Of a DNA stretch of 64,000 nucleotides, positions 2,469-63,878 are shown piece by piece. The DNA comes from Desulfuromonadales bacterium (lineage in GTDB: Bacteria; Desulfobacterota; Desulfuromonadia; Desulfuromonadales; BM103). Location: the NCBI GenBank assembly GCA_030145205.1, contig JAQYVZ010000001.1:1-64000 (forward strand), given 5' to 3'. The notes below the pieces were generated by a model. It was not told the DNA's origin and did no database searches. It worked only from the letters and a program-made list of their open reading frames with translations. The position numbers and the translations under genes are program-made. Position 1 is the stretch's first letter. Each line of letters begins with the position of its first letter.

Positions 2469-3239
2469 TTACTTATTCGCTGTCAGCAACCCGAACTGTT
2501 CCACCTGCTTGCCCCAGTCGGCGCTCATGGCGTAGATGGCAGCAGCTTGAACCAGTGGGTGAGTCGCGTTCTTCTTGTCGTAGACCAGGCCGAGACCAAC
2601 ACCGGACGAGAACCCGGCGACATCCACAACCGTGACTTCCTCAAAATTGGGCAGGGCGCCAAAGGCAATTGCATTGACACCATCAGGAGATTTCAGGAAG
2701 TTGACCACCTGATGATCTTTTTTGAAGACCTGGTCAAAAGGAACATCCGTGAAAAAGGCATAATCTGACTTCAGTACTGAGTAAAGCGCTTCGGTCGGTT
2801 CACGTCCGACCAGAACAATCGGCGCATCCTGGCCACCCACCTGGCTCCAGTTGCTCACCTGCTTGGTAAAAACTTTCTGGAGTTGGTCCAGCGTCAGAGT
2901 GGAGACACCGGCATTCGGGCCAACGGCAAAAGCAATCGGCACCCGGGCCAGAAAAATCTCTGCCTTATTCCTGGAGGCTTCCGCCGCATTCAAAGGGCGA
3001 CCAGTCCGGCCGAAAATGTAGCTGTCCGTGTTCTTGAGACCACCGGCGTGCTTGGCCGACCGGGGCGGGACCTGAAACTCATATCCGGCAGCCGCTGGCT
3101 GCGTGACAAAATGATCAACAAACAACTGAACCACCTTGGTGGATGGACCGGCCCCGGCAACAACCTGAACTTCGGTCGCACTGGCGACGCAGGCAAAAGA
3201 AAGCAGGAACGCACATAACACAACCAGCATCTTTTTCAT
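2469..3239 (-). CDS. PstS-like periplasmic substrate-binding protein
   Basis: A 256-residue exported protein. The start is the ATG at 3239, preceded by a clear AGGAGG; a 17-codon upstream extension lacks a ribosome site and was rejected. Residues 1 to about 21 are a signal peptide (MKKMLVVLCAFLLSF...VASA). The body matches short phosphate-ABC-type binding proteins: the segment STLTLDQLQKVFTKQVSNWS followed by VGGQDAPIVLVGREP is typical of that fold. No permease or ATPase genes lie beside it, so it is unlikely to serve a dedicated ABC importer here. The chemoreceptor gene immediately downstream suggests it may be a soluble ligand-binding partner for taxis. The ligand is unknown; phosphate or another oxyanion is only a family-based guess. 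Confidence 0.85.
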   Translation of the reverse strand: MKKMLVVLCAFLLSFACVASATEVQVVAGAGPSTKVVQLFVDHFVTQPAAAGYEFQVPPRSAKHAGGLKNTDSYIFGRTGRPLNAAEASRNKAEIFLARVPIAFAVGPNAGVSTLTLDQLQKVFTKQVSNWSQVGGQDAPIVLVGREPTEALYSVLKSDYAFFTDVPFDQVFKKDHQVVNFLKSPDGVNAIAFGALPNFEEVTVVDVAGFSSGVGLGLVYDKKNATHPLVQAAAIYAMSADWGKQVEQFGLLTANK

Positions 3240-3604
3240 GGAATCCTCCTGAAGGCGTTGGCACCTGGAATGCTTCATCAACCTCGTCAAAATGACAAAT
3301 TAACAAAACAAGAGGTGCAACATAAAGAAATGCTCAGCTCGTCGAAAAACATTTTTTTTGGAATCAACACAGACAATAACAATTTGTTGAACATTGACCG
3401 TAACAGCCGCCCCATCCCGTGGCAGCAAAACCGACCAGTAAGTAAAAAGATACACAAGCAATTTATCAGCCAAAACGTCAACAGGATAATCATATGTCAT
3501 TTAAAGCACTTAGAGAAACACAACTCACGCTGAGCAATAGCATGTCGCCATATAACTGCTGTTCACGGTGAATACACCAAAAATCTTTCCTCGCAGGTGC
3601 AACA
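3240..3604. other. Gene-free interval upstream of the binding-protein gene
   Basis: About 365 bases without a credible gene; short frames on both strands lack ribosome sites and family features. It should hold the promoter of the binding-protein/chemoreceptor unit, but no convincing minus-strand -35/-10 pair was identified. On the plus strand at 3259-3274 there is a 16-base match to the sigma-54 -24/-12 pattern (TGGCAC, five bases, ATGCT) pointing away from any known gene. Confidence 0.5.
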
Positions 3605-3643
3605 CAAAAAAGCGCCAGACATGCCTCTAGGCAGATCTGGCGC
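3605..3643 (-). terminator. Rho-independent terminator of ahcY
   Basis: AGCGCCAGA (3611-3619) pairs with TCTGGCGCT (3635-3643), with an inner TGCC/GGCA stem. On the minus strand the hairpin is followed by TTTTTTG. It begins 26 bp after the ahcY stop. Confidence 0.85.
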
Positions 3644-3669
3644 TCTTATCGATACAGAAAATCCTCAAG

Positions 3670-5133
3670 TCAATAACGGTACCAATCCGGCTTATAGGGA
3701 CCTTCAACCGGCACATCAATGTAATCTGCCTGATCCTGGCTAAGAACCGTCAGGCGCGCCCCCAGCTTCTCCAGATGCAGCCGTGCTACTTTTTCATCAA
3801 GGGCCTTCGGCAGCACGTAAACTTGGTTCGCATACTTCTCGGGTGAACGGAACAGTTCGATCTGGGCGATCACCTGGTTACTGAAACTGTTCGACATCAC
3901 GAAGGAGGGATGACCGGTGGCGCAACCGAGGTTAAGCAAACGTCCTTCTGCCAGAATGATGACAGCATGACCATCGGGGAAGACCCACTGGTCAACCTGG
4001 TTGCCGTGCTCCTGGGGATTTTTCAGGTTGATCTTCTGAATCCCATCCACAGACGCCAGCGCCGCCATTTCGATCTCATTGTCAAAGTGACCGATGTTGC
4101 CGACAATGGCGTTGTGCTTCATCTTCGCCATATGCTCGACGCGGATAACATCCTTGTTGCCTGTAGTGGTCACGAACACATCCGCGTCACTCACCGCATC
4201 TTCCAGCGGCTTGACCTCATACCCTTCCATCAGCGCCTGCAGGGCACAAATCGGGTCGATCTCGGCAACAATCACCCGCGCGCCCTGGCCGCGCAACGAC
4301 TGGCAACACCCTTTGCCGACATCGCCATAGCCGCAGACCACGGCGACCTTACCCGACAGCATGACATCAGTCGCTCGCATGATCCCATCAACCAGACTGT
4401 GGCGGCAGCCGTAGATGTTGTCAAACTTGCTCTTGGTCACAGAGTCATTGACATTCATGGCCGGGAATGGCAGCTGACCATCCCGTTGCAACTGGTAAAG
4501 ACGGTGAACACCGGTGGTCGTTTCTTCAGTCACGCCACGGATGGTCCTGCAGGTGGTCACCCAATCAATGCGTTTTTCGGCAATGGAGCTCTCCAGGCAT
4601 TTGACCAGTTCGACCCAATCTTCCGGGTCGTCTGCGGCCAAAACAGGCACGCTCTGTTCCTGCCATTCGGCGCCCTTCATGACCATCATGGTCGCGTCGC
4701 CGCCGTCATCGAGAATCATGTTGGGCAAGGCACCATTCGGCCAGCTGAGCGCCCGTTCAGTACACCACCAATACTCCTCGAGAGTTTCACCCATCCAGGC
4801 GTACACGGGCACTCCTGCCGGATTCTCTGGAGTACCGTCGCGTCCAACTGCGATGGCTGCGGCAGCATGGTCTTGAGTGGAAAAGATATTACAGGAAGCC
4901 CAACGCACCTCGGCACCGAGATCCAGTAGGGTCTCAATCAGAACCGCGGTCTGGATGGTCATGTGCAATGAGCCGGTGATCCGAGCACCCTGCAGCGGCT
5001 GCTGCTCCCGAAACTCGTCACGCAGCGCCATCAGGCCCGGCATCTCGACCTCGGCCAGCTCAATCTCGCGGCGGCCCCATGCAGCCAGAGCCAGATCCTT
5101 CACCTTGAAATCGTCAAATGGAGTTCCTGCCAT
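3670..5133 (-). CDS. ahcY: Adenosylhomocysteinase (S-adenosylhomocysteine hydrolase)
   Basis: A 487-residue cytoplasmic enzyme that splits S-adenosylhomocysteine into adenosine and homocysteine, relieving product inhibition of methyltransferases. Recognisable segments include the N-terminal [30 protein letters not shown], the NAD-binding [29 protein letters not shown], and [17 protein letters not shown]. The C-terminus ends KPDWYRY, as the family normally does. Length is in the normal range for the long proteobacterial form. AGGAG lies upstream of the ATG. The leader, about 75 nt between the neighbouring terminator and the start, was inspected for an SAH riboswitch and none was recognised. 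metK lies 2 kb away, giving two enzymes of the methyl cycle in one neighbourhood. Confidence 0.98.
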
Positions 5134-35977: not shown

Positions 35978-36508
35978 TTAAACTCCTTCCCGCTTGGGAA
36001 CAACAATATCCTGAAGGTTGGTCCTGACATTTCCTGAGAAGTCGTAATACTTCTCTTCCACTTGAATAACTTCATTTGAGATGTCCACTACGACACCGTT
36101 GTTCTTGCCTATTTTGACACCCTTCTTAAGGATGTATGATTTTCCATCAGGTGCCACAACCATCGCCCGTGGCACATCCAGTCCGACAATCACGCCGATC
36201 AGTCGGTACTGCTGCAATTCATATTGCTGCAAAGGCGTCAAAGGTTCTTCGGAAACCGGGCCAATCGGCTTGCGGATCGAGGTCAAAGGCAGGAATGGGT
36301 CGCGACGTCCCTCAGACTGATAAGCGAATTTCTGCTCTTTTTCAGCCTTTTCCTCCTTAGCTACTGCCGCAGGGGCCTTTTTGACGGGAGCTTTAGCAAC
36401 CGCTCTTGGCTTAGCAGAGGCAGACTTGGAGGCTGGCTCATCAGAGCAGCCATAAAGGCCGGCCACAAGCAGAAACATGCCAATCAGGTATCCAATGCAA
36501 CGCATCAT
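35978..36508 (-). CDS. pilP: Type IV pilus assembly lipoprotein PilP
   Basis: A 176-residue inner-membrane lipoprotein linking PilNO to PilQ. The ATG at 36508 follows AAGGACAG. The signal ends in VAGLYGC, the lipobox. A Lys/Ala-rich flexible region (about 25-65) leads to the PilP fold (EGRRDPFLPLTS, LQQYELQQYRLIGVIVG, GKSYILKKGVKIGKNNG). Twelve bp separate it from pilO. Confidence 0.94.
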   Translation of the reverse strand: MMRCIGYLIGMFLLVAGLYGCSDEPASKSASAKPRAVAKAPVKKAPAAVAKEEKAEKEQKFAYQSEGRRDPFLPLTSIRKPIGPVSEEPLTPLQQYELQQYRLIGVIVGLDVPRAMVVAPDGKSYILKKGVKIGKNNGVVVDISNEVIQVEEKYYDFSGNVRTNLQDIVVPKREGV

Positions 36509-49824: not shown

Positions 49825-50988
49825 TCAGCGTTTGTTGACTTCCGTGCGACCGGCGCAAATCATTTCACATATTTCCCTAACAGCTCCCCTTCCACCGACA
49901 TATTTTGAAACAAAATGAACAACCCCGGAGACATCTTCAACGGCGTCTGCCGGGCATGCTGAGAAACCAGCCACCCTCAAACATTCCAGGTCATTAACGT
50001 CATCTCCTATGTAGGCAACTGCGTCCATGGTGAGCCCTGATTTGCAAACATGTTCTTCTAGGCAGTCTCGTTTATTTTCAATTCCGACAAAGCAATGCGC
50101 AATCCCGAGTTTCGCAGCACGGGCCAAAACAATCGGAGAATTTTCAGTCGTCATAATCGCGACCTCAACCCCCTCCCTGCGCACCAATTCGAGACCTTTG
50201 GCATCCCTCGTGTTGAATTTCTTCAACTGATCACCTTCTGCAGACCAATACATTCCACCATCAGTAAGCGTACCATCAACATCAACAACCAGCAGTTTGA
50301 TTTTAGACAGGGGACTGGACAGAGATGTCATGCTTCGTTCGCGCAAGGCGCGTTCCACCAGAAGCCAATCAGCAGGGTCATCTATTTCGATAGCATTTTC
50401 CGCCGTCATCTCGTAAATCCCGAGACGCCCTCCCAACCGGCATCTGTTTTCGACAAGGATATTGCGTTTCGTGAAATAAAAAGCCCCGTTTTCCATCAGG
50501 GTCCCGGCAAAGTCCTGCCGTCTTGGTCGCTGTTGAGGATTGTAGTTTAGAGCAATGCCTTCATCGTTCCAGAAAAATCGTTTGGTTCGCACAGCAGTTA
50601 ATAGAGAGTCATAACCCTCTTTTTCAAAAAGATTGTAGGCTTTCTGAAAATCTTCGGGTTTGACCAAAGGTGACGTTGCTTGAATCGTCACCAGCACCTC
50701 AAAGTCAAGTTGTTGTGCAGCATGCAACAAAACCGACTCGGTCGAGGCCTCATCTGTTGCCAAATCGGCAGGGCGCTCAAGAATCTCCACCGGTAACTGC
50801 AGACCACGGACAACGGCGGCGATCTTCTGCGAATCGGTAGAGACCACAACCCTGGCAAAAGCACCGGACCGACAAGCAGCTTCCAGCGCCCAGGCACAAA
50901 GAGGCTTCCCCGCCATCAGGCGAATATTTTTATCTGGGATACCCTTTGAGCCGCCTCGAAGCGGGATTAGTGCAACGACATTACTCAT
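49825..50988 (-). CDS. CMP-nonulosonate synthetase fused to KdsC-like phosphatase
   Basis: A 387-residue two-domain protein. Residues 1 to about 225 form a NeuA-type cytidylyltransferase (VALIPLRGGSKGIPDKNIRL, VVVSTDSQKI, TIQATSPLVKPEDF, IEIDDPADW). Residues about 230-387 form a C0-class HAD phosphatase (VVDVDGTLTDGGMYW with Asp236 and Asp238, IMTTENSPIV, YIGDDVNDLECL, YVGGRGAVREICEM) closely like KdsC. The ATG at 50988 follows AAAGGA and overlaps the neuB-like stop by 8 bp. The fusion suggests dephosphorylation of a nonulosonate-9-phosphate followed by CMP activation, or a structural role as in vertebrate CMAS. Confidence 0.85.
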   Translation of the reverse strand: MSNVVALIPLRGGSKGIPDKNIRLMAGKPLCAWALEAACRSGAFARVVVSTDSQKIAAVVRGLQLPVEILERPADLATDEASTESVLLHAAQQLDFEVLVTIQATSPLVKPEDFQKAYNLFEKEGYDSLLTAVRTKRFFWNDEGIALNYNPQQRPRRQDFAGTLMENGAFYFTKRNILVENRCRLGGRLGIYEMTAENAIEIDDPADWLLVERALRERSMTSLSSPLSKIKLLVVDVDGTLTDGGMYWSAEGDQLKKFNTRDAKGLELVRREGVEVAIMTTENSPIVLARAAKLGIAHCFVGIENKRDCLEEHVCKSGLTMDAVAYIGDDVNDLECLRVAGFSACPADAVEDVSGVVHFVSKYVGGRGAVREICEMICAGRTEVNKR

Positions 50989-51847
50989 CGACATTCCTTT
51001 TGAGTTTTTGCCTCTGAGCACACTCAATCGGCAGGATCTCCTGAGACTTACACGTCAATGCCTTTGAAACATTGCGCAGGTCACGCGCCAGCCGGCGCAT
51101 GCCATCGGGTTCCAGGCTGGCAGCATGATCCGTACCTTTCCATGTTCGATCCAAGGTAAAGTGTCGTTCAAAGGATGTCGCCCCAAGGGCCAATGCGGCC
51201 ACATCAGCCGCGATCCCCAAATGATGTCCAGAAAAGCCTATAGCTCGAACGATACGGCCGAACTTCGCCTTCAACCTCTCGATTTCATGAAGACAAATAT
51301 CTTCGAAAGGCACAGGGTACCCCGATGTACATGCGTAGATTATTAAATCCTGAGCTCGTCCCGATTTTTGAAACAACTCAATGATTCGCTCCTCTTCAGC
51401 ATGTGTTGTCATACCAAAAGACAAATGGATTTCACCGCCATAATTTCCGGCCAGCCACTTCAACAGCTCGAAATCAAGATTACATGCTGATGGAATTTTG
51501 ATCATTCGAGGATCGAGAGAGGCTATCTCCTTGGCGGCCGTCAAATCCCAGACAGACGTGCTGTATTCGGCGCCCCACTCCTCACACCAGGCTTTAAGTT
51601 GCCGGTGTTGCTCAAGGTCAAGCTCAAGAAACTCACGATGCTCTCCATAGGTATCACCATACGAATTTGCGGGGTTTGGATGGGGAGCTAAGTATTCTTC
51701 GGGCGTCAGCAATTCCTGGTTTGTACGTTTTTGGAACTTGATGACGTCAACTTTGCAGAATTGGGCTGCAACTTTGATCATCTCGTGAGCAATATCCATT
51801 TGCCCCAAGTGGTTGCAGCCGATTTCAGCAATAATTTCTGGCAACAT
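50981..51847 (-). CDS. NeuB-family nonulosonate synthase lacking the SAF domain
   Basis: A 288-residue TIM-barrel synthase: IIAEIGCNHLGQMDIAHEMI, VIKFQKRTNQELLTPEEY, KIPSACNLDFELL, CTSGYPVPFEDI, IGFSGHHLGIAADVAALALG and SFERHFTLDRTWKGTDH. Usual NeuB proteins are about 340-350 residues with a C-terminal antifreeze-like (SAF) domain; here the protein ends after the barrel. It condenses PEP with a six-carbon sugar or its phosphate to give a nine-carbon acid. Partner genes follow directly. GGAGGC precedes the ATG. Confidence 0.86.
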   Translation of the reverse strand: MLPEIIAEIGCNHLGQMDIAHEMIKVAAQFCKVDVIKFQKRTNQELLTPEEYLAPHPNPANSYGDTYGEHREFLELDLEQHRQLKAWCEEWGAEYSTSVWDLTAAKEIASLDPRMIKIPSACNLDFELLKWLAGNYGGEIHLSFGMTTHAEEERIIELFQKSGRAQDLIIYACTSGYPVPFEDICLHEIERLKAKFGRIVRAIGFSGHHLGIAADVAALALGATSFERHFTLDRTWKGTDHAASLEPDGMRRLARDLRNVSKALTCKSQEILPIECAQRQKLKRNVDE

Positions 51848-57315: not shown

Positions 57316-58533
57316 TTATCTGAAACGAGCCAACCTTTTAGCCAATACCGAGAAAAAACTTTCTTGCCGGAAATCTTCCCTGGCAAACTCTTTCCTGACA
57401 TCTGGCAACCTGATTTTAGGGGGGGCAATAAAGGGTTGCCGGACAGGAGCGCTGTCGAGCAATTCCTTACAAAACCCTTCCCAGAGGTCTGCAGCATGCT
57501 GTAAAGAGAATTTTCCCATAATGTGCTGTTTTGCGTTGGCTGCTAAAGATTTACGCAAGTCTGGATCATCAGATAACATCTTAATCGCCGTCAAGAAATC
57601 CTGTCTGCGGTTTTTGACAAGCACACCTGTGACCTTATCAATAACCAAATCCCTGACCCCGCCCTCTATATCGAGGCAGACAGGGACAACCCCGCAGGCC
57701 ATCGCATCCATGACGGCACCTGGTGTCCCCTCATAATCAGACAACAGCACAAGGACATGATATTGTACCAGCTGGTCTTGGATTTGCTCACTGGGACAAA
57801 CACCAGCAATATGAATTCGATGTGACAGACCCAGACTTCCAATACGCTTTTCGACATTTGCACGTTCGGGACCATCACCGTATAAAGTCGCCGTAATATC
57901 AGGCTGACTGTCCATGACAAGAGCCAGAGCATCAATCAGGTCATGAACTCTTTTCTGCTCTTGTACCATCCTCCCGACATATGCAATTTTGAGAGGCCCA
58001 TCGTGTCTGGAAGTTTCAGCAGGGATCGGTACACCGGAAGGAATCACGCATAATTTCGTGTACTCAGGGCACTGTATACTTACTGCATTCTTCAAGTGCT
58101 CACTCACACAGACGAGGCCACTCACCGCCCACAGCTTGTCTCCCAATACAAAATCATCCACCATAGCCCAGTAAAAGTCTTCATCGCTACGATGGCACGC
58201 GATTGTCGGTATTCCGGCTTCACGCGCCCAGCGAGCGGCGAACCAACCCGCGACAGAAAGATTGGGCACGAAAACATCCGGAGAGATATATGAGATCTGC
58301 TGTAAAATCCAGACGATTTTATCTTCGGTCGAACAGTCAAAGGGGTGTACATAACAGTGAACACCTAAGCTCTCAAGATAGTCGGCGCTCGGCGCACCCT
58401 CTGCACCTAAACGGAAGATGAGGCAGTGCACCTCATGCCCACGTGAACAAAGCTCTGGCAACAGTCTCCTTGCGTTAACAATTGGGCCAACAAAGTAGTC
58501 AGGCCTGTCATAAAAAACAAATAGAAGTTTCAC
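57316..58533 (-). CDS. Family 4 glycosyltransferase
   Basis: A 405-residue GT-B enzyme: LLFVFYDRPDYFVGPIVNAR, GIPTIACHRSDEDFY, VIPSGVPIPAETSRHDGPLK, IAYVGRMVQEQKRVHDLIDA, LYGDGPERANVEKRI, EGTPGAVMDAMACGVVPVCL and DIEGGVRDLV. A GTG start follows AGGC. The tail beyond residue 370 is basic. About 150 bp without a gene separate it from the TupA-like gene upstream. Confidence 0.9.
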   Translation of the reverse strand: MKLLFVFYDRPDYFVGPIVNARRLLPELCSRGHEVHCLIFRLGAEGAPSADYLESLGVHCYVHPFDCSTEDKIVWILQQISYISPDVFVPNLSVAGWFAARWAREAGIPTIACHRSDEDFYWAMVDDFVLGDKLWAVSGLVCVSEHLKNAVSIQCPEYTKLCVIPSGVPIPAETSRHDGPLKIAYVGRMVQEQKRVHDLIDALALVMDSQPDITATLYGDGPERANVEKRIGSLGLSHRIHIAGVCPSEQIQDQLVQYHVLVLLSDYEGTPGAVMDAMACGVVPVCLDIEGGVRDLVIDKVTGVLVKNRRQDFLTAIKMLSDDPDLRKSLAANAKQHIMGKFSLQHAADLWEGFCKELLDSAPVRQPFIAPPKIRLPDVRKEFAREDFRQESFFSVLAKRLARFR

Positions 58534-58687
58534 CCAAAAGCCTCACGGAAAGTCCTCACAGATAAGATCGGCTGGATTGAAACAGGGGTCTTTATGAACC
58601 TGACAAGGGAACGGTTGATCATAAAGATATCGACCTTCTCCATGTTAGAACCGCAGGAGAGAAACGTAGCAGTCCTCAGGGTCCTGC

Positions 58688-59641
58688 CTACTTATAGATT
58701 GGCGGCTTAAACGTTGTCCGGTCAAAATCTAACAACTGCCCTAAAGCTTTCTGACCTTCACCGCGGTAGCAGCCCGACATTGGGAAAAACGTCATTTCCC
58801 CAACATAGAGCGCTTTATCTTCCAGGTACATATCTACCCGCACATACTTGAAGGGCTCTGCCAACTTTTCCGCAACGCGAATCATTTCATCCCAAGAAGT
58901 TGGCTTCCCCCCCCCCCCCTGCTGAAAATTTTCATCGAAGCGTACAGGTATTACGGTTCCTGACACATCGAAGATCTGTTCTTTGGTTGAAGAACCGCGA
59001 TCGTAAATGTATTGCAACCACCGCACTTTTCCTTCAACACAATGAAACTTAAAATCTGCTGGAGGAGAGGTTTGTGATGCAGCAAGATACTCTTCAACCA
59101 GAACCCTTGGGTCAATATGAGAATATGCCCATTCCCCCTTTAGCCATCCGTATGGACTTTTTAAGGCCGCCTCTATTTTGCTCTCAACAATTTCAAAATT
59201 GTAATCTGCCTTATTGCGGACTAAAAACACGGTTCCGGAATCATGGTTAGTTTTAATCACAAAAGAATCTGGAAGCAGGTCAAAATCGATTTGTGAAAAA
59301 TGATCATGAGCTTGATAAAGTGTAACTAAATATTTCTGCCCTACACATTTTTTCACATACTCCCTGACAAGAATTTTGTCAGAGCATTGAACCACCTGCT
59401 CACATTGATCGAAAAGCTTCAACCACTGAATTTTATCATTGTAGTCTCTGCAGTGGACCAAATCCGGGAATTCTACCAGCTTATCCCAACAAAACTTATG
59501 AATGTTTTCATACAATTCATAATGTTTCTCCGTTAATGGCAAGCAACGGATATCCGCTTGCCACTTTTTTCGAATTGACAAAAAGAGCTTAGCGGAAGAG
59601 GTATTGTCCCTCATTTTCTCCAAATATCTCTTAATATTCAT
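58688..59641 (-). CDS. TupA-like ATP-grasp protein with poly-G tract
   Basis: A 317-residue protein (ATG at 59641; a GTG at 59656 overlaps capA's end). It matches the TupA-like ATP-grasp family: IQWLKLFDQ, CSDKILVREYVKKCVG, DSFVIKTNHDSGTVFLV, LVEEYLAASQTSPPADFKFH and FKYVRVDMYLEDKALYVGEM with FFPMSGC. Named after teichuronopeptide synthesis in Bacillus, the family ligates carboxylates and amines, but here the substrate is unknown. The coding strand has thirteen G in a row at residues 241-245 (QQGGGGKP). The current length keeps the frame open; a change of one base would stop translation within about 12 codons. Confidence 0.85.
   Translation of the reverse strand: MNIKRYLEKMRDNTSSAKLFLSIRKKWQADIRCLPLTEKHYELYENIHKFCWDKLVEFPDLVHCRDYNDKIQWLKLFDQCEQVVQCSDKILVREYVKKCVGQKYLVTLYQAHDHFSQIDFDLLPDSFVIKTNHDSGTVFLVRNKADYNFEIVESKIEAALKSPYGWLKGEWAYSHIDPRVLVEEYLAASQTSPPADFKFHCVEGKVRWLQYIYDRGSSTKEQIFDVSGTVIPVRFDENFQQGGGGKPTSWDEMIRVAEKLAEPFKYVRVDMYLEDKALYVGEMTFFPMSGCYRGEGQKALGQLLDFDRTTFKPPIYK
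58907..58919. repeat. Poly-C/poly-G homopolymer tract (13 bases)
   Basis: An uninterrupted run of 13 C on the plus strand (13 G on the coding strand) inside the TupA-like gene. All other C/G runs noticed in the window are 8 bases or shorter. This is the classic substrate of slipped-strand mispairing. Confidence 0.97.
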
Positions 59642-59648
59642 AAAGCCA

Positions 59649-60836
59649 TTAGGCACTATATATTTTTCTCAAAATCTGACTTATTGCCTCTTTCATCTGT
59701 CCCAACAATCTCATTCCCAATGAAATCTTTATTTCCGGAATTATGACTAACGATTCGGGCGAATACCAATAGGCCATCACCCCATTACGTAGTTTTGACT
59801 TAAAGACTGGCTCACCCCTGTCTCTCAAAACCAGCTCTTCCCTCTCGACATAGGCCTCGAGTCGAATATTTGCTGCGTCAAGATCAAATGTCAGATCAGA
59901 TTTTTCGATAGGGCGGACTCTTCCATCCCTGAATAACATGGGCTGAATATGTTCTAAGTCTAAACACCCCTCACCATTATCAGGCACTATTTTAAATGAA
60001 ACAGCCAAGGACTCGCGATTGGAAGGCTCATCCCTGATAGAAACTTTTTCAATGCGACCGTTTTCACGGACAGCCTGAGCATACCCAGCTTTAAACAAGT
60101 AGTTCCCTAACCCATAAAAAATCCATCGACCACGATACTGCTCAAAAGTCTGAATGGTGTGTGAATGGCACCCAACAACTGCATCTGCGCCACAATCGAT
60201 TGCATGACGCGCCAGGCGAAGTTGGTCTGGTGCGGGGTCATGCACCCACTCACACCCCCAATGAAGATAGACCAACAAGGCATCGCACATTGATCGCGCA
60301 CCATCAACGGCCTGCTTTAATGTTGCCATCCCAAGCGGTGCGACACCTGGGCTAAGGTGGGTGGCCAGGTTTTCGCTGTTTGTGGTTGGGCAGCACAAAG
60401 CGACAACGCCCAACTTTTTCCCGTCAACATCAAGGACGGCAGGTTCTACTGCAGCATTTATCGTTTCTCCGTAGCCAACAGTCTTAATTTGTTTGGCTTC
60501 CAACAATTCAAGAGTGTCATGTACTCCTCCGGCACCAAAATCCGCAATGTGATTATTGCTCAGGATAACCATCGACAACTCATCCAGAGCCGTATGCCAT
60601 TTTGGCGGCACCTTTAGGTTGGCCCATTTAAATGGCAAGCCCTGTTCCCTGGCTGTGAATGGTCCTTCTAAATTTGCAAGGATTTTATCCTTCGGACTGA
60701 AAACACTCCGCAAACCAGACCAGCAATTTGAAAAGTCCCCACTGAGTTCATCACTCAGATTATCGTTGGACAGACAGAAGTCACCCAAAACAACAATATG
60801 AGAGCACTCCTCTCGTTTGTTTTGGCTATCTACCAT
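59649..60836 (-). CDS. CapA-family protein (poly-gamma-glutamate/metallophosphatase type)
   Basis: A 395-residue protein of the CapA/PgsA family, a calcineurin-like metallophosphoesterase fold. Motifs: IVVLGDFCLSNDN, ILANLEGPFT, VILSNNHIADFGAGGVHDTL, VYLHWGCEWVHDP, AVVGCHSHTIQTFEQYRGRW and FYGLGNYLF. There is no signal peptide or strong membrane anchor at the N-terminus, unlike secreted CapA. In Bacillus, CapA helps make and move polyglutamate. Here the neighbouring ATP-grasp gene, translated just downstream, suggests an amino-acid or peptide decoration of the exported glycan. Confidence 0.85.
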   Translation of the reverse strand: MVDSQNKREECSHIVVLGDFCLSNDNLSDELSGDFSNCWSGLRSVFSPKDKILANLEGPFTAREQGLPFKWANLKVPPKWHTALDELSMVILSNNHIADFGAGGVHDTLELLEAKQIKTVGYGETINAAVEPAVLDVDGKKLGVVALCCPTTNSENLATHLSPGVAPLGMATLKQAVDGARSMCDALLVYLHWGCEWVHDPAPDQLRLARHAIDCGADAVVGCHSHTIQTFEQYRGRWIFYGLGNYLFKAGYAQAVRENGRIEKVSIRDEPSNRESLAVSFKIVPDNGEGCLDLEHIQPMLFRDGRVRPIEKSDLTFDLDAANIRLEAYVEREELVLRDRGEPVFKSKLRNGVMAYWYSPESLVIIPEIKISLGMRLLGQMKEAISQILRKIYSA

Positions 60837-60876: not shown

Positions 60877-61830
60877 TCATTGTGGGGGTTCACGAAATAT
60901 TTTTTTAACTCGTGACAAACATGCAGAGCCAAAATCATCACTCAAATAAGGAGTTTTTTGCAAACGCCTCCTTATTGAGATATATGCGTTTTTCCAAGGA
61001 TGTGTATTTGACAAATGCCATGGCTTTGATGGCCCATTATAATGTACCAGCAACGGGTTGTTCTTTGCTGCGACAATGTCTTCATATTCAGCAAAATCGA
61101 GATCTGACGTCGGTTTTGTTTGCCAATATGCCATAGTCACATTCCACTCAGGAGACAAGAATTTAAAGGATGGCCCAACGACATAATTTAGAGCACATTG
61201 ATCTGCAAAACGTATTCGGTCCGGGTGCTCACGGATAAAGGAAATCGTTTTTTCAGTAATATTTTCCTGCCTCCATTTAAGCAAGTCAATCACCATGACG
61301 CCTGAATTAAAATAGGGGATATCTTCAGACCTTTTTAAAGAAACACAAAGCTTTTTCCATTGGTCGGTCCAATAAACAGGCCTGGCTGCAACCACATTTC
61401 CGTTCAATGCCGTTCCCAGTAGCGTCCGGACAGACCCCCGCACCAGAACATCACTGTCCAAATAGAGGATTTGATCATCCTTCACATTAATCAACTCAGG
61501 AACAAAAAGACGATAATAGGCAGCGGGCCCCAAATAACTGCAATCCTTTAACCCATCGACCAACTTTATATCGAAGGCAATAAATGTGATGTTGCAATTT
61601 GCTTCTTTTACCAAAGCCTCAATTTTACGGCGCCACCTCACATTGTCTTTTTCGTAGAACAAAAAAATTTCTAAAGATTCGACATATTTGACGACAGAAA
61701 ATATAGCAACAGCGGCATGTTGCCAATAGTCCTCGCAGATACACAAGAAAACTTTATTTCTAATATCTAAATTCATGACGTCAGCTTGTTTTTCTATATC
61801 AATAAAGTGTTCATTACAATATGTTTGCAT
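60877..61830 (-). CDS. Family 8 glycosyltransferase
   Basis: A 317-residue GT-A enzyme: VFLCICEDYWQHAAVAIFSV, AAYYRLFVPELI, DQILYLDSDVLVRGS (DXD), YFNSGVMVIDLLKWRQ, FADQCALNYVV and LVHYNGPSKPW, the GT8 set (galactosyl- or glucosyltransferase type, retaining). The start may be 61830, overlapping the Wzt stop, or the ATG at 61776, which fits the conserved domain better. Substrate unknown. Confidence 0.88.
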   Translation of the reverse strand: MQTYCNEHFIDIEKQADVMNLDIRNKVFLCICEDYWQHAAVAIFSVVKYVESLEIFLFYEKDNVRWRRKIEALVKEANCNITFIAFDIKLVDGLKDCSYLGPAAYYRLFVPELINVKDDQILYLDSDVLVRGSVRTLLGTALNGNVVAARPVYWTDQWKKLCVSLKRSEDIPYFNSGVMVIDLLKWRQENITEKTISFIREHPDRIRFADQCALNYVVGPSFKFLSPEWNVTMAYWQTKPTSDLDFAEYEDIVAAKNNPLLVHYNGPSKPWHLSNTHPWKNAYISIRRRLQKTPYLSDDFGSACLSRVKKIFREPPQ

Positions 61831-63016
61831 TTTTAGTAACTTTTGTATAAGTGATCAAATCACTATCTACAAAAAATCTGGCAACGCTATCGCACCTTTT
61901 AAAAACCACATGCCGATTTTCATCATAAAACTCAGCCATAATCTCATATAAGCCCCCTGTCAGTTCAATTTCACCCAAATCCAAACAGACCGTATGCTCT
62001 CCAGGAGGGAATATTTTATAGCTGTCACTATTATTCTTCACAACACGGTAATTAATTATAACTTTTCCAGAACCATCACCAACTCTTATGTCTAAACAGC
62101 TTCCAACACCTACATCGGACACAAAAAATTTTAAACTGAGATGCAATGTCTCTCTTCGAATATAACAGAGAACATCATCTTTTAATTTTTGCTTCTTATT
62201 TACAAGTTCAGCTTCTAGCATTTCCACTCCCCCTTTTCCAGAGGGAGCATTCTTTTGTATGTTCAGAGTTTCATACACTCTGATCCCTTCATGAACTGAA
62301 GAGGTCAGTCGTTTCGTTCCTCCTCCTTGCATGACCATTACTTTGGTTGCGTACCACGAAATAAATTCCATGCTGTGAGAAACAAGAATAACCGCTGCAT
62401 TAGACATCATTTCCCGAATCCTGTTACCGCATTTTACCCTGAAAGCCATATCCCCCACTGCCAGAACTTCATCCAAAAGCAAGACATCAGGCTTCAAAAC
62501 TGCAGCCACTGAGAAACCAAGTCTTACAGCCATCCCAGAGCTGTAATTCTGCACAGGGGAATCAATAAATGCTTCAATCTCAGCAAAATCGACAATCTCG
62601 TCGAGCTTTTCATCTATCTTCTTCTTGCTCAACCCCAACACCGTTGCGTTGACGTAGACATTTTCCCGACCCGTCAAGATCGGGTTGAAACCTGCGCCCA
62701 AAGCGATCAACGCACCGACACGACCTCTCATTTCAATACGCCCTTTATCCGGCTTGATCAAGCCGTTCAGCATACGCAATAAGGTCGTTTTTCCTGCACC
62801 GTTAGGTCCTACCAACCCAAGGCATTCGCCGCGCTTCAGATCAAACGAGACATCCTTGACCGCCCAGAACTCGTCATCCCTCAACTCACTGATGTCTCCT
62901 TGTCTGCGGCCAGTAACTTCGCGCCCCAAATCCTGCATCCCATACCACAACGACCGCTTGAAACTGCGACAGAACTTCTTTGAGACACCTTCAACTTTGA
63001 TCAATGTGTCACTCAT
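61814..63016 (-). CDS. wzt: Polysaccharide ABC transporter ATPase Wzt with C-terminal domain
   Basis: A 400-residue protein. Residues to about 245 are the nucleotide-binding domain: [20 protein letters not shown] (Walker A), ALGAGFNPILTGRENVYVNA, NYSSGMAVRLGFSVAA (signature), VLLLDEVLAVGDMAFR (Walker B) and LVSHSM. The remaining 150 residues are an immunoglobulin-like region corresponding to Wzt C-terminal domains, which bind the capped non-reducing end of the O-antigen in the best-studied systems. The ATG at 63016 overlaps the wzm stop. The extension implies a Wzt of the type needing a recognition signal on the glycan. Confidence 0.9.
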   Translation of the reverse strand: MSDTLIKVEGVSKKFCRSFKRSLWYGMQDLGREVTGRRQGDISELRDDEFWAVKDVSFDLKRGECLGLVGPNGAGKTTLLRMLNGLIKPDKGRIEMRGRVGALIALGAGFNPILTGRENVYVNATVLGLSKKKIDEKLDEIVDFAEIEAFIDSPVQNYSSGMAVRLGFSVAAVLKPDVLLLDEVLAVGDMAFRVKCGNRIREMMSNAAVILVSHSMEFISWYATKVMVMQGGGTKRLTSSVHEGIRVYETLNIQKNAPSGKGGVEMLEAELVNKKQKLKDDVLCYIRRETLHLSLKFFVSDVGVGSCLDIRVGDGSGKVIINYRVVKNNSDSYKIFPPGEHTVCLDLGEIELTGGLYEIMAEFYDENRHVVFKRCDSVARFFVDSDLITYTKVTKNANIL

Positions 63017-63017
63017 T

Positions 63018-63878
63018 TCAAGCACTCATCCGTTCGATCAGCACCGGCATCGCCAACCGATAAATGACCCAAACCACTAGAAGCAGAACAACCGAAGCGA
63101 TATTTACAGCAACAAAATAAGCAATGAACTCTGGTGATACCCCGGTCAACCAATCACGCGTTGTGAGGATAAGCGGAGTTAACGGATTGAGAGTGAACAA
63201 AGTGGAAACCCAGCCCTCTTTCGGCATGGGGAAAACAACAGGAGTGACATACATAAGGAACTGCATTAATAAAGGCAAGGCTCGCCCGACATCTGTATAG
63301 AGAATGCCAACCGGTGCAATTAGTAGCCCGAGGGCAGTACCGACGAGAATGAGAGAAACAACACCAAGAGGGAAAAACAGAAGAGACCCACCAGGGGCAA
63401 GCGACATAAGGAACAAAACCCCAAGAAGCAACACTATTTTGATCAATGCATTAAAAAGGGTTTGGTAAATACCGGAAAGAATGAGTGCTTCGCGCGGAAA
63501 GTTCAATTTAGAGAGCATCCCCTTGGCCGCGTTGATTTGCTGTAAAGGGGAATTCAGGGCGTCCATGAATATCGCCCAAAGCATCGTTCCGGTAAAAACG
63601 TAAACAGGGTACGGCAATACCGTGTCCGCGATCTTCACAACACCGGTACTGTTGAGAAATATCCAGGCGAGCGTGTTGGCGAGCGGTAGAATAAAAGCCC
63701 AGAGTATCCCGAGGAAGGCTTGTCGGTACTGCCCACGAATATCACGGACAGCAAGGCGCCAAGCTAACTCCCGCCCAGCGGCCAGGTCAGCAAACATCTC
63801 ACGCAACATCACACCCGGACTGGCCAGCGAGGAGTCTGGGGTGTAGATGGTTTTTTTTAATTCTGATTGCTCAGGCAT
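63018..63878 (-). CDS. wzm: Polysaccharide ABC transporter permease Wzm
   Basis: About 286 residues from the ATG at 63878 (an in-frame GTG at 63986 would add 36 residues unlike the family). ELAWRLAVRDIRGQYRQAFL, GILWAFILPLANTLAWIFLN and six hydrophobic spans match ABC-2-type polysaccharide exporters (RfbA/Wzm). It ends ...VLIERMSA and shares its stop region with wzt. This pair moves the finished, lipid-linked polysaccharide across the inner membrane. About 120 bp between its start and the window edge show no gene. Confidence 0.9.
   Translation of the reverse strand: MPEQSELKKTIYTPDSSLASPGVMLREMFADLAAGRELAWRLAVRDIRGQYRQAFLGILWAFILPLANTLAWIFLNSTGVVKIADTVLPYPVYVFTGTMLWAIFMDALNSPLQQINAAKGMLSKLNFPREALILSGIYQTLFNALIKIVLLLGVLFLMSLAPGGSLLFFPLGVVSLILVGTALGLLIAPVGILYTDVGRALPLLMQFLMYVTPVVFPMPKEGWVSTLFTLNPLTPLILTTRDWLTGVSPEFIAYFVAVNIASVVLLLVVWVIYRLAMPVLIERMSA

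Follow-up and report, generated by a model that had tools for sequence, protein, structure and literature searches.

A gene encoding a TupA-like ATP-grasp ligase, located in a surface-glycan cluster of the window (the whole stretch of DNA analyzed, 64,000 nucleotides), carries a run of 13 G residues on its coding strand (G13). We propose, with moderate confidence, that this run is a slippage-prone poly-G contingency tract switching an amidoligase that would decorate a surface polysaccharide exported by a Wzm/Wzt-type transporter. Phase variation of glycans through poly-G tracts is well known, with contingency loci in Campylobacter jejuni, Helicobacter, and Neisseria. The features of the candidate gene are located as follows.

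58688..59656, minus strand: TupA-like ATP-grasp ligase gene (PF14305), 322 aa from the GTG at 59656 or 317 aa from the ATG at 59641
58907..58919, minus strand: poly-G tract (G13 on the coding strand), ligase codons 246-250
58882..58884, minus strand: TGA ending the frame after loss of one G, 257-aa product (position worked out)
58887..58889, minus strand: TGA ending the frame after gain of one G, 256-aa product (position worked out)
58790..58840, minus strand: codons 273-289, R-V-D-x-Y...G-E-x-T, invariant columns and strands of the model, removed by either frameshift

A run count over the 64-kb window located the tract, which reads as C13 on the forward strand, at nucleotides 738-750 of the 322-codon GTG-start reading. 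Its codons 246-250 correspond to codons 241-245 of the 317-codon ATG-start reading, exactly the position and numbering given for a 13-base G run in the initial annotation, which had also stated correctly that the other C/G runs of the window do not exceed 8 bases (the next longest have 8). Conceptual translation revealed that one G fewer leads to a 257-aa product ending in GGGGSQLLGMK-stop and that one G more leads to a 256-aa product ending in GGGGEANFLG-stop, reproducing both endings previously read from the sequence. Loss or gain of two G residues results in products of 255 and 258 aa, respectively, and the ligase frame stays open upon addition or removal of three. The early stop in both shifted frames therefore stands, at 5 to 7 codons past the tract rather than within about a dozen, as does the loss of the catalytic end, which amounts to 72 of the 322 residues (22%) rather than a quarter. 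The residues removed (251-322) include R273-V274-D275, Y277, G286-E287, and T289. One-unit changes in tract length would convert the intact ligase product to a truncated one, as is expected of a poly-G contingency locus. The location of G13 toward the 3' end of the gene, not the 5' end, counts against a switch.

The relatives align with the ligase in the same frame on both flanks of the tract (alignments of 4, 7, 10, and 11 sequences), indicating that the recorded G13 length corresponds to the ON frame. The tract region encodes QQGGGGKP, in place of QGYQFEKP and HGDSFSKP in two near relatives (L033 and L034, respectively), which are one residue longer. A glycine run at this position was absent from all aligned relatives. 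Thus, G13 looks like a slippage expansion within a loop of variable length, in which changes of three bases are probably tolerated, in contrast to changes of one or two.

The assignment of the gene to the TupA-like ATP-grasp enzymes was borne out by a match to PF14305 (ATPgrasp_TupA; 125.4 bits, E = 3.5e-36, curated Pfam cutoff of 25) and by the ATP-grasp fold of a structural model built from 10 sequences (pLDDT of 89.1, pTM of 0.86); an earlier model, built from 4 sequences, was discarded as poor (pLDDT of 49). The tract is in a stretch modeled mostly as coil, ahead of a helix (residues 255-266) and of two strands (271-279 and 282-289), the last two core strands of the modeled fold, which come after the tract. 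The best Foldseek matches of the model were the ATP-grasp ligases D-Ala-D-Ala ligase, LysX/ArgX, RimK, and PsnB, with a probability of 1.00, yet with TM-scores of only 0.34 to 0.45, and searches of PDB sequences with the ligase profiles returned no relative. Residues D275 and E287, together with R273, V274, Y277, G286, and T289, are invariant in all aligned relatives. The D...E-x-N/T pair of ATP-grasp enzymes, which we take to be represented here by D275 and E287, holds the metal-ATP complex. Codons 273-289 are therefore the probable metal- and ATP-binding strands, and a truncated ligase lacking the C-terminal strands should be inactive.

Among the 58 related genomes searched by protein, only the ligase gene of the window itself was found, and the 395 genomes of the phylum yielded only distant TupA-like proteins (28 to 33% identity), so that these searches gave no second strain with the gene. 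A TupA-like protein from the Geobacteraceae metagenome-assembled genome GWC2_53_11 (L032) is 57% identical to the ligase and is likewise encoded near a gene pair for an ABC polysaccharide exporter, but lacks a poly-G tract, its loop (IEEFTVP) being one residue longer.

The genes surrounding the ligase gene on the same strand are the following.

49825..51847, minus strand: NeuB-family synthase and CMP-sugar transferase/HAD genes (PF03102, PF02348, PF00702), nonulosonate-type sugar supply
57316..58533, minus strand: glycosyltransferase, GT4 type (PF00534), downstream of the ligase gene
59649..60836, minus strand: PGA_cap (CapA-like) gene (PF09587, 184 bits), overlapping the start of the ligase gene
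60877..61830, minus strand: glycosyltransferase family 8 gene (PF01501)
61814..63025, minus strand: Wzt-like ABC transporter ATPase for polysaccharide export (PF00005), with a similar gene near the ligase relative in L032 and L033
63018..63986, minus strand: probable Wzm-like ABC permease, with no Pfam match, assigned by its by-eye likeness to the open reading frame preceding the ATPase gene in L032 (5161-6060)

The cluster also comprises several GT4 and GT2 genes and methyltransferase genes. This Pfam content, that of a capsule- or O-antigen-type cluster with an ABC exporter, agrees with the surface-polysaccharide setting proposed at the outset, so that the tract, judged by gene content only, lies in a surface-glycan gene, as is expected of a poly-G contingency tract. 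The ligase relatives are found in comparable surroundings, close to an ABC ATPase gene (L032 and L033) or adjoining glycosyltransferase and methyltransferase genes (L034 and L208). No terminator-like site was present on the coding strand in 58534-58687, and an Rfam scan of the window detected only one tRNA. Between positions 36001 and 64000 of the window, the G+C content decreases along the glycan cluster from ~54% to 45%. This drop suggests horizontal acquisition, and a search of the 58 nearest genomes found no TupA-like relatives.

The glucuronic acid of the C. jejuni capsule is amidated by a TupA-like domain located at the C terminus of Cj1438 (PMC11800379). The ligase of the window shares with this domain the TupA-like ATP-grasp annotation and the capsule gene setting (PMC11800379), although Cj1438 combines several domains, a GT2 domain among them, whereas the ligase stands alone, and the two are likened by annotation, not by sequence. 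The Pfam family is named after TupA of Bacillus halodurans, which acts in teichuronopeptide synthesis, and the PGA_cap gene adjoining the ligase gene recalls the poly-glutamate/polyglucuronate polymer (PMC8153356), although B. halodurans TupA belongs to another phylum and another type of cell envelope. Our best guess, which borrows its amide chemistry from the Campylobacter protein, is that the ligase is an amidoligase that may decorate the exported polysaccharide at a uronic acid.

According to the proposed model, the recorded G13 would be the ON state of the ligase. If replication adds or drops one or two G residues, the protein would have 255 to 258 residues and would lack the metal- and ATP-binding C-terminal strands, so that the enzyme would be absent; further slippage would restore the frame. 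A three-base change would alter only the glycine loop. A clone would thereby be a mix of cells with and without the decorated glycan. The model presupposes that the tract slips at a high rate and that switching has been selected. By definition, phase variation requires that switching go both ways and be frequent enough to be detected without selection (review PMC11868660). By its gene class, its frame logic, its loop placement, and the parallel cases described below, the locus is constructed like a poly-G contingency locus.

The foremost alternative is that G13 is a homopolymer that arose by chance and that the loop tolerates; it may slip more than average DNA but would have no selected role in switching, its OFF variants being lost or neutral. 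We regard this as possible, if somewhat short of probable. G13 is the longest G/C run of its own assembly (3.72 Mb in 317 contigs), in which no other run of at least 12 bases was found and in which runs of at least 9 bases number 20 (12 of 9, 6 of 10, 1 of 11, and 1 of 13), versus ~24 expected under a first-order Markov model. Long runs are therefore not above chance genome-wide. Nor would one 13-mer in a genome be very surprising, since 0.10 runs of at least 13 bases per genome are expected from the first-order Markov model of the window and 0.15 when the other 19 runs are fitted with a geometric tail; the latter figure corresponds to a 14% probability that a genome has one or more. This ~10 to 14% event counts against a switch, and runs of 9 to 10 bases are also found in frame within unrelated genes of the same genome. 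The runs of 9 to 11 bases were rejected as additional contingency tracts, since they sit in unrelated genes, in intergenic repeats, or near contig ends. Chance fares less well at a smaller scale, as the Markov model and the geometric tail predict only 0.0018 and 0.0027 such runs per window, respectively (~0.002 to 0.003), and the geometric tail predicts 0.0009 (~0.001) for a stretch of 22 kb such as the glycan cluster. Thus, G13 is rare for the window, yet for the genome as a whole it is only mildly unusual, and the absence of a poly-G excess in this genome leaves the location of the tract to carry most of the weight. The genome also encodes both MutS (1,059 bits) and MutL (574 bits), which lowers slippage and counts against a switch.

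Related genomes were surveyed for similar tracts. A G12 or longer tract was present in 46 to 49 of 136 genomes of the same order, and a G13 or longer tract was present in 98 of 395 genomes forming an even sample of the phylum. The 188 tract regions fetched were selected by place, not by function, and sorted by a longest-open-reading-frame rule, which is crude, many of the calls within coding sequences being antisense shadows. The likely intragenic tracts were therefore read again by eye and checked against Pfam, so that the final list is a matter of judgment, and one genome (G034) was left out of one classification. Most tracts in relatives were in intergenic, contig-end, or artifact-like regions, with mixed functions. 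Tract-rich genomes (such as G034, G376, G488, G453, G280, and G429) were set aside because of mixed G/C runs, contig ends, masked bases, and an artifact-like appearance. G034 (L133 to L144), a single contig of 4.1 Mb, contains 23 tracts of G12 or longer, which reach 78 bases, often come in pairs, and are probably sequencing artifacts. The intragenic tracts retained are as follows.

L178:973-2394 (G036, same order): G12 at 1081-1092, in frame (ON), CoA_binding_3 and Bac_transf domains
L278:1544-2542 (G155): G13 near 2001-2013, in frame (ON), Polysacc_synt_2, CapD/PglF-type dehydratase
L270:1694-2373 (G319): G13, halves in different frames (OFF-like), gene between GT4 genes
L162:2210-2953 (G107): G12 in frame, siroheme synthase, in a conserved ST-GGG-SPALA motif, not an obvious contingency gene
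L193:1464-2363 and 2806-3714 (G132): G12 at the same codons in both tandem paralogs, no Pfam match
L127: tract out of frame in a penicillin-binding protein gene
L271: tract in the signal region of a solute-binding protein gene
L274: tract in the signal region of an MlaC gene

Three of the nine intragenic tracts accepted besides that of the window are in surface-glycan genes, a share with a binomial P value of 0.002 to 0.03 under an assumed 3 to 8% of glycan genes, for a list that is small and includes paralogs that are not independent. The L178 gene encodes a WbaP-like polyprenyl-phosphate sugar-1-phosphate transferase, with the tract near the N terminus between hydrophobic segments, and is a second candidate glycan switch. 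The L278 protein is two residues longer at the tract than C. jejuni WlaL; its gene neighbors CoA_binding_3 and GFO_IDH_MocA genes, and the usual N-terminal half is encoded by a separate upstream open reading frame. The split gene of L270 is weakly sulfotransferase-like (E = 0.55). That tracts of at least 12 bases in the order are mostly outside genes and of mixed functions agrees with a chance origin, whereas the recurrence of glycan genes among the few intragenic tracts of relatives argues against it. The occurrence of tracts in glycan genes of other species makes a switch at the tract of the window more plausible.

Tracts were also observed in other positions. The paired tracts of L193 may reflect independent expansion or a recent duplication. 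Two genomes from different families (L120 in G006 and L161 in G107) each carry a G12 tract directly ahead of the start of a ComF-like gene. Possible promoter-type tracts, ahead of genes named by eye, are a G17 located 79 bp ahead of an acyltransferase-like gene (L275 in G223) and a C16 located 36 bp ahead of a sulfotransferase-like gene (L265 in G462).

An error of sequencing or assembly, with a true tract that is shorter, longer, or mixed and of which G13 is merely the consensus, is improbable in our view. The assembly is a draft in 317 contigs, so that the recorded length could be wrong by one or more bases, many poly-G runs of relatives are at contig ends and look artificial, and Illumina sequencing can give false homopolymer indels, especially beyond 14 bp (PMC8808543); the tract of the window, however, is inside a long contig with unique flanks, and with 13 bases the frame is open and matches that of relatives on either flank. 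Slippage of RNA polymerase or of the ribosome, leading to a fixed mixture of full-length and truncated proteins with unchanged DNA, would fit a ligase frame open at the DNA level and the ability of long homopolymers to cause transcriptional slippage, but is very unlikely, since the truncated product, devoid of the catalytic end, would have no apparent use and nothing in the sequence points to such slippage.

Similar to the loci of Campylobacter, Helicobacter, and Neisseria, the candidate switch combines a long G tract with a surface-glycan gene, in which a one-base change truncates the product and a three-base change keeps the frame. Unlike those loci, it belongs to a genome with a single tract, no excess of shorter tracts, and mismatch repair genes, in a lineage of the free-living type, and it is known from one recorded length. 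Several loci per genome (a phasome) are usual in the classic species, without being strictly required, in comparison to the single tract of at least 12 bases found here. In the open-licence literature searched, we found nothing on phase variation in Desulfuromonas, Desulfovibrio, or deltaproteobacteria, and only unrelated papers for Geobacter, in keeping with the initial annotation, in which no such tract was known to be described for this group. Within that literature, both the bacterial group and the target of the poly-G tract, a TupA-like amidoligase that stands alone, appear to be new.

Together with L178, L278, and L270, the tract of the window leads us to suggest, tentatively, that poly-G switching of surface-glycan genes may be an undescribed habit that recurs in this phylum, whose members are mostly free-living, usually with one or few tracts per genome, presumably kept by pressure from phages or grazers. 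If the proposed switch is real, it would act on the amidation of a glycan. Phase variation of glycans through poly-G tracts, for which host-associated bacteria are the best-studied examples, would then also occur in a sediment-type lineage, in which the likely selective force would be phages or grazers rather than an immune system.
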